In this document: one piece after another, positions 46,005-53,655 of the stretch | Numbering within the stretch: the stretch's first letter is position 1 | Layout of the letters: each line of letters begins with the position of its first letter | Assembly: GCF_000687145.1 (NCBI RefSeq) | Contig: NZ_JMFG01000023.1 | Coordinates: 16,310 to 80,309 of the forward strand | Length of the DNA stretch: 64,000 nucleotides | Source of the DNA: Thermoanaerobaculum aquaticum | Lineage (GTDB): Bacteria; Acidobacteriota; Thermoanaerobaculia; Thermoanaerobaculales; Thermoanaerobaculaceae | Direction of reading: 5' to 3' | Program-made: the position numbers and the translations under genes | The notes under the pieces: model-generated | The model's database searches: none | Told to the model about the DNA's origin: nothing | The model's input: only the letters and a program-made list of their open reading frames with translations

Positions 46005-46826
46005 TTACAGCTGAACCAACGGGGTTACCCGCCGGAGAAATTCCTCAGCTTCTTCGCCGCCCTTAAGCAGCGAGATGGCCCGCGCCAGCTGGTCCACCAT
46101 GCTTTGCACGGCGCTCATCCCCTTGCCTCGCTCAATTTCGGTGCGCGCCAGCCGGTACTGTTTTTCCACGGTGATGGCCCCTCCGGGCCCGACGATTTCC
46201 TCGGCAATCTTGCGGATGTTTTCGGTGAGCGCCAGCAACGTTGTCACCGAAGGCCCGGCCGGAGCTCCCTGGGGGGCTTCCTCCCCCGGCGAACGGAGCC
46301 CAATAAGCCCCGAGGTGATAAGGCCAAAGAGCGTCTTGCACAAATCAAAGGCCGAAAGCTTGGTCACTTCCTCCAGCTGCCGGATGGAGCGCTGGCCGTC
46401 AATTTTGGTCACCACCACCCACTCGTGGGGGGAAAGGGTTACCTGATCGTGGCCCGGTTCCCGAGGCAAAAAGTACGGGATCAAATCCAAAGAAGGAATG
46501 CGCTTTTGCAAAACCCGCCACTCGTCGAGTCGGCGCGCCGCCTCCATCATCAGTGAGGCATTGGACTTGGTGATGGTGACCTGGTCGGATTCCACCTGGG
46601 GGGTAAAGATGAACTGGCCCCGCTGCCAGATGGCCATTTCGTAAACGGCGTTTTCCCCCCGCAGGTTGCCCACGTAGGCGTCCACGATTTGCCCGTCCTT
46701 GAGGAAGATCTTACCGACGATGCCCCCATCGCCGGAGAGCGTGAACACCCCCGTTTTACCCGACACCGATACCAACTGGATTACGTCGGGGAGAGCCAAG
46801 TCAGCGAGGGAGCCTTGGAGTGCCAT
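46005..46826 (-). CDS. DUF4388 (PATAN) domain protein
   Basis: 273 residues. N-terminal PATAN/DUF4388 domain (LQGSLADLALPDVIQLVSVS; GKTGVFTLSGDGGIVGKIFLKDGQIVDA in part) as found in gliding/twitching regulators, followed by a winged-helix-like segment (IDGQRSIRQLEEVTKLSAFD) and a helical tail. No membrane helix, so cytosolic. Sits between tonB and the TPR gene in the Ton operon. PATAN proteins often work with response regulators; the 919-residue kinase next door carries one. Confidence 0.85.
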   Translation of the reverse strand: MALQGSLADLALPDVIQLVSVSGKTGVFTLSGDGGIVGKIFLKDGQIVDAYVGNLRGENAVYEMAIWQRGQFIFTPQVESDQVTITKSNASLMMEAARRLDEWRVLQKRIPSLDLIPYFLPREPGHDQVTLSPHEWVVVTKIDGQRSIRQLEEVTKLSAFDLCKTLFGLITSGLIGLRSPGEEAPQGAPAGPSVTTLLALTENIRKIAEEIVGPGGAITVEKQYRLARTEIERGKGMSAVQSMVDQLARAISLLKGGEEAEEFLRRVTPLVQL

Positions 46827-46832
46827 GATCGC

Positions 46833-47537
46833 TCACTGGAGGCGGAAGTTCACGGTAACGATAATGATGACCTCTACTGGTTTCCCGTTAAGGGTCGAGG
46901 GCTCCCATTTCCATTGCTTCACCGCTTCCACCGCGGCTTCGGTAAGCCCCATGGAGAGACCGCGGAGCACCTTCACGCTCTTGGGGTTGCCCTCCTTATC
47001 CAGCACCACTTCAAGGATAACCGGCCCTGAGACCCTTGCCCGCCGGGCAATCTCCGGATAAACGGGGTCCACATATTTGATTCGCCGCGGCTCCTTAAGC
47101 TGCCCACCAACACGAATCGGTCCCTCGTCCTCCGGTGGCGGTGGGGGGCCAATATCCCCAAACACTGCGTCCGCCGGCAGCGGGGTATCGGGGATTTCCT
47201 CCTCCGGCTCGTACTGACGGACGGGCTCCGGTTCATCAGGTGTGGGGTCCGGAATCGGCACCCTCACCGTCTTCGGCTTGAGGATCTCCTGCTGCTTCTG
47301 CACTTCCGGGGGCTTGAAGCGCGGCTGCTGCACCACGAAGATCTTGGGTTTGTTTTGCTGGGCCTCAGCCGTTCGCGTTGCCCATTCGGGGAAGCGAATG
47401 ATGAAGAGCACGACGTGGAAGATGACCGCAATGATGGTTGCGATCCGAAGGGTGCGCCGGTCCTCCTCGTACTCCTGCGCCAGCATGGTCAGCTCTTGGA
47501 GCGTGAGGTCTTGCTTTTGGCGCTCATTGGTGCTCAT
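46833..47537 (-). CDS. tonB: TonB-family energy-coupling protein
   Basis: 234 residues. Cytosolic N-tail, one membrane helix (IATIIAVIFHVVLFIIRF), a Pro/Glu-rich periplasmic spacer (PIPDPTPDEPEP; PPPPPEDEGP) and a C-terminal TonB domain (YVDPVYPEIARRARVSGPVILEVVLDKEGNPKSVKVL in part; WKWEPSTLNGKPVEVIIIV). Couples the proton motive force from ExbBD to outer-membrane receptors. GGAGG precedes the ATG. The long cytosolic N-tail is atypical for E. coli TonB but common in such lineages. Confidence 0.92.
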   Translation of the reverse strand: MSTNERQKQDLTLQELTMLAQEYEEDRRTLRIATIIAVIFHVVLFIIRFPEWATRTAEAQQNKPKIFVVQQPRFKPPEVQKQQEILKPKTVRVPIPDPTPDEPEPVRQYEPEEEIPDTPLPADAVFGDIGPPPPPEDEGPIRVGGQLKEPRRIKYVDPVYPEIARRARVSGPVILEVVLDKEGNPKSVKVLRGLSMGLTEAAVEAVKQWKWEPSTLNGKPVEVIIIVTVNFRLQ

Positions 47538-47580: not shown

Positions 47581-48060
47581 CTACAGAGCTCCCAGAGCGC
47601 CCCACAGGTTTTCGATTTCCCGCTGGGTAGGTAGAGAAATGTTCAGCTCCCTGGCCAGTCCCAGCTTGTCCTTCACCTGCCGGAGCTCGTCAAAGGCGTC
47701 CATCATGGCCCCGTAGGGGGCTTGGGGATCCGGGCGCAGGATCACGGGCTTTTCAATGACGGGTTTCCCATCCACCAGCTTGCCCGGAACGATCTTACCC
47801 TTGAGGTAGTCGGCAAACTGCGATAAAGCCAAGGGCCGGCCGTCCACCAGGTAGGTCCCTTGCGGCGTGACCTTGACCTCCACAGCCTCTTCCCTCTCCA
47901 GCTGCACCTGGGCGGTGTCTTCCTTGGGAACCGCAAAGTCCAACCCCTTGGTGGCCGAAAAAGCCATGGTCACCATGAAGTAAATGATGAGGAGGAAGGT
48001 CACATCGGCCATGGATCCCGTAAAGATTTCCGGCGGTATTTTCCGACGTTCAAGTTTCAT
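47581..48060 (-). CDS. exbD: ExbD/TolR-family protein (second copy)
   Basis: 159 residues. Short cytosolic tail, one membrane helix with the conserved Asp (GSMADVTFLLIIYFMVTMAF), then a periplasmic ExbD/TolR fold (VEVKVTPQGTYLVDGRPLAL) with a longer C-terminus than its neighbour. Part of the stator that uses proton flow. Differs from the first copy at most positions, so the two copies are not recent duplicates and may form a heteromeric complex. Confidence 0.92.
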   Translation of the reverse strand: MKLERRKIPPEIFTGSMADVTFLLIIYFMVTMAFSATKGLDFAVPKEDTAQVQLEREEAVEVKVTPQGTYLVDGRPLALSQFADYLKGKIVPGKLVDGKPVIEKPVILRPDPQAPYGAMMDAFDELRQVKDKLGLARELNISLPTQREIENLWGALGAL

Positions 48061-48070
48061 GGCGCCCCCC

Positions 48071-48508
48071 TCAGCTCTTATCCGAGATCGTACGCTGCTC
48101 GGAGAGAAGGAAGATCGTTCGCACCCGTGCCTGTTTCAAAGCATCGAGGATCTTGTCAATGATTTGATACCGCGTGCCCTTATCCGCTTTCACCACGAAC
48201 GGCTTATCCGGAGCCTGGGCTACCACGTTTTGGGCAAAGGTTTGAACCTCTTCCACCGTTGCCACAGGCACAGAGGTTTCCTTGCCACCCGAAACCCTGA
48301 TGACACCCTCGGTATCCACCGAAACGTAGGCAGCATCGCGGGGCACATCGGTGCGCACCGTGGTGCGCGGCAACTGCACCCGAGCCTTGTCCACCTCAAT
48401 GTTGTACGTGACGATGAAGAAGATGATGAGGAGGAAAACGATATCCGCCATCGTCGCGGTGGGGATGTAAGGGTCGGGTTTACGGCCTACTCGCCGTATT
48501 CGGATCAT
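48071..48508 (-). CDS. exbD: ExbD/TolR-family protein (first copy)
   Basis: 145 residues from the ATG 1 nt after the exbB stop; a longer frame into exbB is ignored. Membrane helix with the essential Asp (TATMADIVFLLIIFFIVTYN), periplasmic domain (AAYVSVDTEGVIRVSGG; PFVVKADKGTRYQIIDKILDALKQA in part). Works with ExbB as a proton-driven motor for TonB or Tol. Confidence 0.93.
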   Translation of the reverse strand: MIRIRRVGRKPDPYIPTATMADIVFLLIIFFIVTYNIEVDKARVQLPRTTVRTDVPRDAAYVSVDTEGVIRVSGGKETSVPVATVEEVQTFAQNVVAQAPDKPFVVKADKGTRYQIIDKILDALKQARVRTIFLLSEQRTISDKS

Positions 48509-48509
48509 C

Positions 48510-49166
48510 TTACGCCTCCGCGCCGCCTCCCTGTCCGTACCGCTCGCTATCCATCTCAATGAAGGTGTCCATCAACATGTTGGAAGCCACCTCAATATCC
48601 CGCATGAACCGGTTGATGCGGCTCATGTAGTAGTTGTAGCCGAGCTGGGCAGGGATGGCAATGAACAAACCGGTAGCGGTGGTAATCAGTGCCTCCGAGA
48701 TACCGGCCGCCACGGCGCCAGGGTTGGAAAGACCAGCCTGGGCAAGGGTCGCGAAGGACTTGATCATGCCCGTAACCGTGCCCAAGAAGCCCAACATTGG
48801 CGAGATGTTGGCGGAGGTGGCCAGCACCATCAAGCCCCGCTCCAGACGGGCGCTTTCAAAAACTGCGGCCGACTCAATGTTCTTCTCGATGTCCTCCCGG
48901 GGATGACCGTAGCGGGCCAAAGCCGCCTTCACCACCGAAGCCACCGGTCCCTGGTACTCCTCGCACACCTTCATGGCCCCGCGCACGTCGCGGTTGACGA
49001 GAAGCGCCTTCCGTACCTTGGAAAGGAACTCATTCACGTTGACCTTGGCCTTCCGCAACGCCAGCCCGCGCTCGACGATAAACGTCGCGGTCAAGATCGA
49101 GAAGACCAAAAGTGGCCACATGGTGATACCACCCTGCTGGAAATAGGTAACCAGATCTCCTAACAC
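48510..49166 (-). CDS. exbB: ExbB/TolQ-family proton channel protein
   Basis: 218 residues from GTG preceded by GAGGAGG. Three membrane helices: GGITMWPLLVFSILTATFIV, then NISPMLGFLGTVTGMIKSF and ALITTATGLFIAIPAQLGYN (MotA/TolQ/ExbB signature). Forms the pentameric channel with ExbD. First gene of the six-gene Ton operon, with a recognisable promoter upstream. The frame stays open upstream but GTG gives the family-typical N-terminus. Confidence 0.94.
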   Translation of the reverse strand: MLGDLVTYFQQGGITMWPLLVFSILTATFIVERGLALRKAKVNVNEFLSKVRKALLVNRDVRGAMKVCEEYQGPVASVVKAALARYGHPREDIEKNIESAAVFESARLERGLMVLATSANISPMLGFLGTVTGMIKSFATLAQAGLSNPGAVAAGISEALITTATGLFIAIPAQLGYNYYMSRINRFMRDIEVASNMLMDTFIEMDSERYGQGGGAEA

Positions 49167-49249
49167 GTTCGCCTCCTCACTTTCCCGGATTGGCCTTCCG
49201 CCAAGTCCGTTGGTTTTGCCGGATGAGGCAGCCCTTCTCCGGCTCGGTG

Positions 49250-49279
49250 AGGCTAACACAGGAAGGAAAGGAGAGTCAA
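49250..49279 (-). promoter_or_regulatory. Promoter of the exbB-tonB operon
   Basis: TTGACT (49274-49279) and TAGCCT (49250-49255) with an 18-bp spacer on the minus strand in the 135-bp gap after ruvC. The leader of about 75 nt ends with GAGGAGG before the exbB GTG. Confidence 0.45.
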
Positions 49280-49301
49280 CGAGCGTAGCGCCAGAGCTCA
49301 A

Positions 49302-50655: not shown

Positions 50656-53415
50656 ATGAAACCGACAGTCCTCCTCGTTGACTACGAGCCCCGCAACGCC
50701 GCCCGCTATGCGGCCGCCTTGGCTCCCTTGAACGTGGAGTTCCTCTCCGCCACCGACCTGGATGGGGCTATCGCCCACTGCAGCAAGGTGGAGCCTTCGC
50801 TGGTGCTGTTAACCTCGGTGTTGCCCCGGGTCAAGGTGGAAGACGCCATTACCCAACTGCGAGCCCGGGCTGGCCTGCGGACCACCCCCTTTGTCGTCCT
50901 GATGAGTGGCTACACCGGCAGCGACACCCGCGGGGACGCCCAGCGGTTAGGGGCCCAGGACATTCTCCCCAAGCCCTTTTCCGACCAGCAGCTCCGGGAT
51001 TGCGTGAAGCAGTGGCTGGAAGCCGGAGCACGGGCCGCCACGGTTTCCGAAAAAACCAAGGTGGAAATCCTTGAGGCCCTGAAACAGCAGGGCGCCGAGG
51101 GCGGCGTGGTGACCTCCCAGGAGCTCTTTGGCGATATCCTGAGTGAGGAAGAAGAAGCACCCAGCCCAGCCGATACCCAGCGCATCCGCGTGGAACCCAA
51201 AGCCCCGGTGAAGAAACCGGAGGCGCCGGCACCAGCCCCACCCCAGGCCGCACCCGCCGCACCACCCAAACCCCCAACCCCTCCCCGCCAGGTGCCCGCC
51301 CCAAAGGGAGCGGTGGAGGACGTGGAGCGGGTGCTGGAAGCCACCATTGCCGATGTCCTCAAGGCCGAAGAGAAAAAGCCCAAGCCCGCGGAGGATACCG
51401 GCGCCAAGCGGGTGGACGAGCTGCTCTCGCAAACCCTTTCCGGGCTTGAAGTGCCTCTGAAACCCAAGCCCAAACCGGAAGCCAAGCCTACCCCTCCCCC
51501 TCCAGCCGAAGCTCCCGTGGCTCGCCCTGAGCCTCCCAAGCCTGCGGCCGCCCAGCCCACAGCCACCACCGGCACCGCCTTTGGCCAGTACGAGCTCATC
51601 GAGCACATTGCCACCGGCGGCATGGCCGAGGTGTACAAGGCGCGCATGAAGGGCCTGGAGGGCTTCCAGAAGATCGTGGCCATCAAGCGCATCCTCCCGC
51701 ACCTTACCGACAACGACGAGTTCGTCACCATGTTCATTGACGAGGCCAAGCTGGCCGCCCAGCTCCAGCACCCCAACATCATCCACATTTACGACTTGGG
51801 CAAGATCGAGCGCTCCTACTACATCGCCATGGAGTACATTGACGGCCTCGATCTGCGCTCCATCCTCAACAAGCTGCAGGCTAAAGGGGAGCGCTTCCCC
51901 TTGCCTCTGGCGCTGTACGTGGGGGCGCGGTTAGCCGATGCCCTGGACTACGCGCACCGCAAGCGCGACTTCAAGGGCCAGGCCATGGCCCTGGTGCACC
52001 GCGACGTTTCCCCGCAAAACGTGCTGATCTCCTACGAAGGGGAAATCAAGCTCTGTGACTTCGGCATTGCCAAGGCCGCCTCCAAGGCTTCCCATACCCG
52101 CGCCGGGGCTCTCAAAGGCAAGCTTCAGTACATGTCCCCGGAACAGGCCTGGGGCAAGGACCTGGACCACCGCTCCGACATCTTCTCCCTGGGCCTGGTG
52201 CTTTACGAGATGATCGTGGGGCGCAAGGCCTTTTCCGGGGATTCGGAGCTTTCCATCCTCGAGCAGGTGCGCAGCCCCAAGCTGGTGCCACCCCGGGAGC
52301 TGGACCCCAGCATCCCGCCCGAAGTGGAGCAGATCCTCCTCAAGGCGCTTAAGGAAAAGCGCGAGGAGCGCTACCAGTCGGCAGCCGACATGGCCAAGGA
52401 CCTGGAAGCGGCCATGCGCGCCTTCGAGCCAGCTCCCAGCGCGGCACAGCTGGCGGCTTTCCTCTGCGACCTGGTAGGACGGGAACGTCCGGCGCTGGCC
52501 ACCGAAGCGGCGGCCACGGTGAAACTACCGGTGAGCGCCCCAACGCCCAAGCCACCGGAACCCCAGCCGGCAGCGCCGCCAAAGCCGGAGCCGGCTCCCG
52601 CCCCCGCCCAGCCGGTGACCATCCCCGAGCTGGAGGAAGCAATCCCCCAGCGCCCGAAGCCCTCACCGCTGGTTTGGGCGGTGCCTGCAGTGCTGGTGGT
52701 GGTGGTTGGCGGGTATTTCCTCTTAACCCGCAGCAAACCGGCGGAGTCGCCCTTGCCGGCACCCACCCCCGAAGCGCAGCAGGTGGCCCAGGCGGGGATT
52801 CCGGAGCCCACGGCGCCACCGGCGTTGCCGGGGCCAGAAGCTGCCGCGCGCCCCGCAGGGCAACCGGCCGCAGCACCGGCGGTTGTCCCCACGGTGGCGG
52901 CCCCCGCGACGCGCACGCCCATCCCCACGGCGGCACCGACGCCGGCACCCACCCGGCCGGCGGCACCCACGCCCACTCCGGCTCCTGCGGTAGTCCCGCC
53001 GCCGGTGGTGCCACCCGCTGAGGTGGAGCCCACGCCTACCCCCGAACCCACACCCACGCCGAGACCCACACCTACCCCCGCTCCCGTGGTGGCCCAAGCT
53101 CCGGCGCCGGCGGTGAAAGAGGGAGACCTGGTGGATGTCCCGGACGTTTGGCCCGAGCCCATCCTCATGCCCAAACCCAACTACCCGCCGCTGGCCGCCC
53201 GCCAGCGCCAGGGGGGTACGGTGATTTTGAGCGTGCTGGTGGACGAAAATGGTGTGGTGCGGGATGTGAAAGTGCTGCGCGGCATCAAACCCGACTTAGG
53301 GCTGGATGCTGCCGCGGTGGCGGCTGTGAGGAACTGGCGATACAAACCGGCAACCAAGGATGGGGTGAAGGTGAAAACCTGGTTTACCCAACCCATACCG
53401 TTCAAGCCCCAATAG
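50656..53415 (+). CDS. Receiver-Ser/Thr kinase-TonB C-terminal fusion protein
   Basis: 919 residues. Order: receiver-like domain 1-115 (VLLVDYEPRNAARY; VLLTSVLP; VLMSGYTG; LPKPFSDQQL), where the usual DD pair is DY and the phospho-acceptor position reads LLTSVLP, so phosphorylation is doubtful; Ala/Pro/Lys linker 116-305; Hanks-type kinase about 312-590 (IATGGMAEVYKARM, VAIKRIL, HRDVSPQNVL with His448, CDFGIAKA with Asp468, YMSPEQA), apparently active; linker; single membrane helix about 671-692; Pro/Thr-rich periplasmic spacer (PTPTPEPTPTPRPTPTP); and a TonB C-terminal domain about 830-919 (YPPLAARQRQGGTVILSVLV; VRNWRYKPATKDG). It could pass envelope contact to a cytosolic kinase or the reverse. 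Lies opposite the Ton operon. Confidence 0.88.
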   Translation: MKPTVLLVDYEPRNAARYAAALAPLNVEFLSATDLDGAIAHCSKVEPSLVLLTSVLPRVKVEDAITQLRARAGLRTTPFVVLMSGYTGSDTRGDAQRLGAQDILPKPFSDQQLRDCVKQWLEAGARAATVSEKTKVEILEALKQQGAEGGVVTSQELFGDILSEEEEAPSPADTQRIRVEPKAPVKKPEAPAPAPPQAAPAAPPKPPTPPRQVPAPKGAVEDVERVLEATIADVLKAEEKKPKPAEDTGAKRVDELLSQTLSGLEVPLKPKPKPEAKPTPPPPAEAPVARPEPPKPAAAQPTATTGTAFGQYELIEHIATGGMAEVYKARMKGLEGFQKIVAIKRILPHLTDNDEFVTMFIDEAKLAAQLQHPNIIHIYDLGKIERSYYIAMEYIDGLDLRSILNKLQAKGERFPLPLALYVGARLADALDYAHRKRDFKGQAMALVHRDVSPQNVLISYEGEIKLCDFGIAKAASKASHTRAGALKGKLQYMSPEQAWGKDLDHRSDIFSLGLVLYEMIVGRKAFSGDSELSILEQVRSPKLVPPRELDPSIPPEVEQILLKALKEKREERYQSAADMAKDLEAAMRAFEPAPSAAQLAAFLCDLVGRERPALATEAAATVKLPVSAPTPKPPEPQPAAPPKPEPAPAPAQPVTIPELEEAIPQRPKPSPLVWAVPAVLVVVVGGYFLLTRSKPAESPLPAPTPEAQQVAQAGIPEPTAPPALPGPEAAARPAGQPAAAPAVVPTVAAPATRTPIPTAAPTPAPTRPAAPTPTPAPAVVPPPVVPPAEVEPTPTPEPTPTPRPTPTPAPVVAQAPAPAVKEGDLVDVPDVWPEPILMPKPNYPPLAARQRQGGTVILSVLVDENGVVRDVKVLRGIKPDLGLDAAAVAAVRNWRYKPATKDGVKVKTWFTQPIPFKPQ

Positions 53416-53430
53416 GAGGGAGGAACAAAC

Positions 53431-53655
53431 ATGGCGGTACTGACCGAACAACAGCGCAAGTTTTACGAGGAAACCCTGAAAGTGACCAAGCAGGAGATCC
53501 AGGACCTGGAGAACCAAATCCAGGAAGAGCTGCAGCGGGTCAAGCAGCGCATCGCCGAGCTCCAAGCCGCGCAGAAGGCCGCGCGCCAAATGTACGATGC
53601 GGCTTGCCAGCGGCTGGGGATCCCCAACGACCTGGAGGAGAGTCCCTCCGCCTAA
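53431..53655 (+). CDS. Small coiled-coil protein
   Basis: 74 residues, almost entirely one charged helix with heptad spacing (YEETLKVTKQEIQDLENQIQ; ELQRVKQRIAELQAAQKAAR). No signal peptide or membrane segment. GGAGGGAGG lies upstream of the ATG and the gene follows the kinase-TonB stop by 15 nt, so it is probably co-expressed. Could be a kinase substrate or scaffold, but nothing shows this directly. Confidence 0.75.
   Translation: MAVLTEQQRKFYEETLKVTKQEIQDLENQIQEELQRVKQRIAELQAAQKAARQMYDAACQRLGIPNDLEESPSA

Follow-up and report, generated by a model that had tools for sequence, protein, structure and literature searches.

A Hanks-type kinase of Acidobacteriota with a TonB C-terminal domain as a candidate envelope-spanning sensor or tether

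Introduction

The extracytoplasmic end of bacterial Hanks-type Ser/Thr kinases is usually occupied by PASTA repeats or by another sensor. Envelope signals can also be read by other means, as in the cell-surface signalling system FecA-FecR-FecI, where the state of a TonB-dependent receptor (TBDR) is read via periplasmic contact and leads to the release of a sigma factor. TonB grips outer-membrane receptors through its C-terminal domain. It is tied to its motor through other, defined segments: Ser16 and His20 of the E. coli protein touch ExbB, and the D-box, a strand that follows the transmembrane (TM) helix, binds ExbD (PMC12215075, PMC10907165). TonB goes unmentioned in a review of bacterial Hanks kinases, and the open-access literature searched yielded no paper on an architecture that joins such a kinase to a TonB C-terminal domain (TonB_C); the combination Pkinase-TonB_C may already be annotated elsewhere.

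Results

Architecture of the kinase protein

The window, by which is meant the whole stretch of DNA analysed, comprises 64,000 nt of Thermoanaerobaculum aquaticum (assembly GCF_000687145.1, contig NZ_JMFG01000023.1, positions 16,310-80,309, forward strand). The ORF at 50656-53415 (+) begins with ATG and encodes 919 aa in an uninterrupted frame, along which Pfam matches and hydropathy place, in order, a receiver (REC) domain, a kinase domain, a TM helix, a spacer and TonB_C. A second, small gene follows directly:

50665-51009 (+): pseudo-receiver domain, residues 4-118, with Thr53 at the acceptor position (Pfam Response_reg)
51010-51579 (+): disordered Pro/Ala/Lys-rich linker with the short motifs TSQELFG and VDELLSQTLSGL (motif recurrence)
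51580-52392 (+): Hanks-type Ser/Thr kinase domain, residues 309-579 (Pfam Pkinase)
52669-52725 (+): single TM helix, residues 672-690 (hydropathy)
52726-53133 (+): Pro/Ala/Thr-rich spacer of 136 aa, predicted to be periplasmic (composition)
53116-53133 (+): KEGDLV motif, directly N-terminal to TonB_C (conservation)
53170-53406 (+): TonB C-terminal domain, residues 839-917 (Pfam, TIGR01352, fold)
53431-53655 (+): unannotated 74-aa coiled-coil protein, 15 nt past the kinase stop

Each of the Pfam domains scores above its cut-off, namely Response_reg at residues 5-117 (37.5 bits against 30.2), Pkinase at 312-574 (139.6 bits, above the curated cut-off) and TonB_C at 839-917 (75.5 bits against 24.6). 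The first-pass annotation of this DNA, which had read receiver, Ser/Thr kinase and TonB_C as parts of one polypeptide, is thereby borne out. Two genes joined by error, or a frameshift artefact, can be set aside because most intact ORFs from independent assemblies have the same order, REC-kinase-TM-spacer-TonB_C. By profile matches the architecture and domain order are those listed, and the membrane topology is a prediction. A scan for promoters and terminators gave nothing above shuffled controls.

The cytosolic half

The N-terminal domain is a receiver by its Pfam match yet lacks the phospho-acceptor Asp, which is replaced by Thr53, so that its earlier description as "receiver-like" was apt. 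At the position matching D57 of CheY (numbering after the E. coli protein), most of 99 relatives carry Ser, Thr, Arg, Ala or Asn. Asp occurs in 7 of the 99 (L131, L138, L141-L144 and L151), all of them in f26 or f34, two families that the kinase tree places as sister clades; counted within the kinase family, it occurs in 0 of 66 sequences. With the acceptor missing, phospho-relay into the receiver of the window protein is unlikely. The linker that follows is divergent except for short motifs that recur in most families and that might serve as docking sites. These include TSxELFG and LEETLSGL, the latter often in two copies.

The kinase domain had been called intact, and the catalytic residues agree: K344, HRD (448-450) and DFG (468-470) are all present, and K344, D450, D468 and activation-loop residues are near-invariant across 75 relatives. 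The nearest kinase in the PDB is PknB (E 1e-46). By its catalytic residues the kinase is intact, and it is predicted to be active.

The predicted periplasmic half

Hydropathy supports the single membrane helix proposed earlier, at residues 672-690. Its sequence, LVWAVPAVLVVVVGGYFLL, contains neither the Ser nor the His of the SHLS motif of TonB and TolA. The 136 residues between this helix and TonB_C are 32% Pro, 23% Ala and 12% Thr, and the corresponding spacers of 65 relatives measure 128-278 residues (median 160), consistent with the original suggestion that the spacer is long enough to cross the periplasm.

The C-terminal domain, first assigned to residues 830-919, coincides with the Pfam match at 839-917 and is also recognized by TIGR01352 (68.8 bits). 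When a profile of the C-terminal region was compared with the PDB, E. coli TonB structures ranked first. Structure prediction likewise returns the fold of TonB C-terminal domains: residues 800-919, modelled with AlphaFold2 (mean pLDDT 83), have as their best Foldseek match 6i97_D (E 5e-6; TM-score, taken over the target, 0.85), which is TonB in complex with the receptor FoxA. By sequence, profile and predicted fold, then, TonB_C is genuine. Between the window protein and its two closest relatives, dN in TonB_C is 0.03-0.10 and dS 1.3-1.5, and dN in the spacer is 0.26-0.43, a pattern that shows purifying selection to maintain TonB_C as a domain and the spacer to drift. Within the KEGDLV motif that precedes the domain, G823 is invariant and V826 nearly so among 62 aligned sequences, and the GDLV segment was considered as a candidate built-in mimic of a TonB box.

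Coupling to the Ton motor

None of 92 kinase-TonB_C proteins has a His in the TM helix, as against 21 of 21 TonBs encoded beside these kinases (two artefacts read in the wrong frame, and six rows for kinases, are excluded from the count). Likewise, no conserved D-box-like strand was seen after the TM helix of the kinases by crude scoring judged by eye, and the neighbouring TonBs share a strand of the type [I/V][Y/F]VV[Q/K]Q at this place. The window kinase therefore has the C-terminal domain of a TonB and lacks both the Ser-X3-His TM helix and a recognisable D-box strand. With these motor-coupling elements missing, the protein is probably not energised by the Ton system, and the earlier proposal that the kinase tunes Ton function finds no support.

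Elsewhere in the same genome, a separate TonB and two TolA-like proteins retain the TM His, and two kinase-type proteins are without it (by eye). Two further TonB_C proteins (L084, 2566-3360, and L085, 2059-2826) have no TM helix and are apparently secreted. TonB_C is thus already present outside an energised setting in this genome.

The first-pass annotation also pointed to a gene set on the other strand:

48510-49301 (-): exbB (Pfam MotA_ExbB, 113.6 bits)
48071-48559 (-): exbD, copy 1 (Pfam ExbD, 69.1 bits)
47581-48060 (-): exbD, copy 2 (Pfam ExbD, 71.4 bits)
46833-47537 (-): canonical tonB with TM His and the D-box-like strand KIFVVQQ (Pfam TonB_C, 80.8 bits)

This operon was described as complete and as lying back to back with the kinase gene. 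It is complete, and it lies upstream of the kinase in divergent orientation, but yebC and ruvC intervene. Among loci with a complete interval and a known kinase end, TonB_C occurs with exb at 16 and without exb at 17, and exb occurs without TonB_C at 3, where the kinase ends in a coiled coil instead. Loci retrieved from other classes show no ExbB match in the vicinity of the kinase, so that co-occurrence with ExbB/ExbD is bound to lineage. The operon is therefore a lineage-specific feature and no evidence of function, although its proximity had been taken as such. Independent changes were too few for a tree-based correlation of TonB_C with exb or with the btu genes described below. A gene for a DUF4388 protein follows tonB (window 46005-46826), and the link to ruvC and yebC is kept even where exb-tonB is missing.

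Partner gene, distribution and modularity

The coiled-coil gene is the constant partner of the kinase and the most constant element of the locus. It lies downstream in 103 of the 106 loci with room for it, starting at a median of 22 nt past the kinase stop (the extremes reflect start-codon choice). Both genes are present in 50 of 149 genomes, the kinase alone in 5, the coiled-coil gene alone in 8 and neither in 86 (Fisher p 3e-25, uncorrected for phylogeny). Its product scores above cut-off with no Pfam or NCBIfam model; Tyr12, Glu33, Lys38 and Leu44 are near-invariant.

The best relatives of the kinase are acidobacterial, and the closest of these belong to Thermoanaerobaculum bins. A match is found in 48 of the 61 genomes of the class sample, nearly always in single copy (family f8 has none), and in 55 of the 149 genomes of the phylum sample; the gene is thus mostly single-copy, and roughly one in three of the Acidobacteriota genomes sampled has it, as do most Thermoanaerobaculia.

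Most intact relatives retain receiver, kinase, TM helix, spacer and TonB_C. The exceptions show that the parts can separate. In family f34 the kinase and the coiled-coil gene are kept and TonB_C is lost, the protein stopping just past the TM helix; this family is also among those whose receiver retains the acceptor Asp. Together with f34, four loci (L060, L072, L073 and L077) keep kinase and coiled-coil gene with TonB_C lost or swapped for a coiled coil, and the representative of f48 has no TM helix. Conversely, the gene upstream of the coiled-coil gene was inspected in the eight genomes that have the latter and no close kinase. It encodes a receiver and TonB_C with no detectable kinase domain in f61 and f23, and TonB_C with no detectable kinase domain in f38 (three genomes); in f37 it is cut by a contig end, and two further genomes gave no clear answer. 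The proteins of this kind that abut the coiled-coil gene are those of L160, L162 and L157-L159. Some lineages do without the kinase and others without TonB_C.

The window genome also encodes a second kinase-like TonB_C fusion (L083, 3412-5340 on contig C27), whose TonB_C scores 31.8 bits. It resembles the window kinase in its kinase-like fold, TM helix, spacer and TonB_C, and differs in being an apparent pseudokinase (no HRD or DFG), in lacking a receiver and in having a periplasmic coiled coil.

B12 genes and TonB-dependent receptors

In many lineages, including many Thermoanaerobaculia, the coiled-coil gene is followed by a btuF-C-D cassette, made up of btuF, the gene of a FecCD permease and that of an ABC ATPase. 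Behind this cassette, families f15 and f41 have a TBDR gene. The arrangement suggests that the kinase locus is tied to B12 uptake. Cobalamin riboswitches lie between the coiled-coil gene and btuF at L121 (11760-11947), L125 (11546-11726), L128 (9859-10033) and L132 (5166-5351), all of f15 or f41; none was found in the four Thermoanaerobaculia loci examined. Sensing or import of B12 was rejected as the general function, since the window genome (95.8% completeness) has no FecCD permease and still keeps TonB_C. TBDR plug domains occur in 48 of 48 kinase-bearing genomes examined, so their presence does not discriminate. TonB_C may contact a receptor.

Discussion

Taken together, the protein is best explained as an envelope-spanning Hanks kinase whose TonB_C is a non-energised sensor or tether, a reading to which we give a probability of roughly one half. 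The cytosolic half would consist of the pseudo-receiver, the motif-bearing disordered linker and the kinase, and the periplasmic half of a flexible spacer that ends in TonB_C and is long enough to span the distance to the outer membrane. Undriven by ExbB/ExbD, TonB_C would act as a passive binder of a partner in the envelope; binding might alter how the kinase clusters or how active it is, and the kinase would in turn act on the small coiled-coil protein of the adjacent downstream gene, or together with it. As ligand, a strand resembling a TonB box on an outer-membrane receptor is the likeliest class, with peptidoglycan as the main alternative. Domain order, fold, conservation, loss of the receiver Asp, lack of the motor-coupling His and the constant partner gene are read from the sequence; that TonB_C is passive, which way the signal runs and which ligand and substrate take part, we infer. 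The earlier idea that the state of the envelope is read through a cytosolic kinase remains plausible, given the genuine TonB_C, the long spacer and the single chain. Counted against the proposal are the lineage-to-lineage variation of the neighbouring Ton and B12 genes and the separability of TonB_C and kinase (f34 on one side, f61, f23 and f38 on the other), which weakens a strict coupling of sensor to kinase.

That same separability favours an explanation that stands first among the alternatives, while still on the unlikely side: TonB_C would be a structural tether only, anchoring or dimerising the kinase, and regulation would be cytosolic, through the pseudo-receiver, the linker motifs and the coiled-coil protein. 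Kinase and coiled-coil gene outlive the loss of TonB_C or its exchange for a coiled coil (f34; L060, L072, L073, L077), and TonB_C also exists without a detectable kinase. However, purifying selection on TonB_C is strong and the GDLV-type motif is near-invariant, which suggests a role beyond bulk anchoring.

Of similarly low probability is a specific form of the sensor-or-tether proposal itself, in which TonB_C binds the TonB box that ligand-loaded TBDRs, perhaps BtuB-like, expose, and so informs the kinase of receptor occupancy. The fold is closest to a receptor-bound TonB domain (6i97_D with FoxA), btuF-C-D follows the kinase in many Thermoanaerobaculia and in f15/f41 (there with a TBDR), a cobalamin riboswitch is present at four of the f15/f41 loci, and all 48 genomes have TBDRs. 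Nevertheless, the btu cassette is missing from many loci, the window genome keeps TonB_C without the FecCD permease, the riboswitch, where present, gives the cassette separate control, and TBDRs are too common to discriminate. Extended to the whole phylum, as a route in which a non-motor TonB_C samples TonB boxes and signals to the kinase and its coiled-coil partner across both membranes, the idea is distinctly speculative.

Unlikely, too, though less so than that extension, is a sensor of peptidoglycan or envelope integrity that works like a PASTA kinase, with TonB_C as the wall-contacting domain. Contact of the TonB C-terminal domain with peptidoglycan has been proposed and would suit such a role; PknB is the closest solved kinase, and the PknB/PASTA model NF033483 is the best full-length NCBIfam match, though far under its cut-off. 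Conservation without fixed transport neighbours would also fit, but an unsystematic look at the compared genes showed no conserved neighbour from wall synthesis or division. Finally, an additional energised TonB, with the motor pulling on the kinase protein and the kinase tuning Ton function, is highly improbable, for although TonB_C is genuine and exbB-exbD-exbD-tonB lies nearby in the window and at 16 further TonB_C loci, the TM His is missing from all 92 relatives, as is a conserved D-box-like strand, TonB_C persists at 17 loci that have no exb, and the loci retrieved from other classes have no ExbB near the kinase.

If TonB_C does sense, as the favoured reading allows, TonB domains would be more than pullers, and a bacterium could monitor the nutrient loading of its outer membrane, or its cell wall, via a one-chain phosphorylation cascade. 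The locus makes testable the question of whether a TonB C-terminal domain can signal without the Ton motor.

Among described systems, TonB energy transducers share with the window kinase the fold of the C-terminal domain and a Pro-rich spacer; the kinase differs in having no SHLS TM motif and no recognisable D-box, and in placing 670 cytosolic residues, the kinase domain included, before the TM helix. FecA-FecR-FecI would be resembled in that receptor state is read by periplasmic contact, but the output would be a kinase rather than release of a sigma factor, and a Pfam scan of the window kinase shows no FecR-type domain. The PASTA-type kinases (PknB/PrkC/StkP) likewise combine a cytosolic Hanks kinase, one TM helix and an extracytoplasmic C-terminal sensor. 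NF033483 scores 301 bits on the window kinase, against an equivalog cut-off of 450, its match stopping just past the TM helix, and Pfam finds no PASTA repeats in the protein. The kinase with TonB_C is a variant of the transmembrane Hanks kinases that has TonB_C where PASTA kinases have their repeats, and also an N-terminal pseudo-receiver and a long Pro-rich periplasmic spacer.
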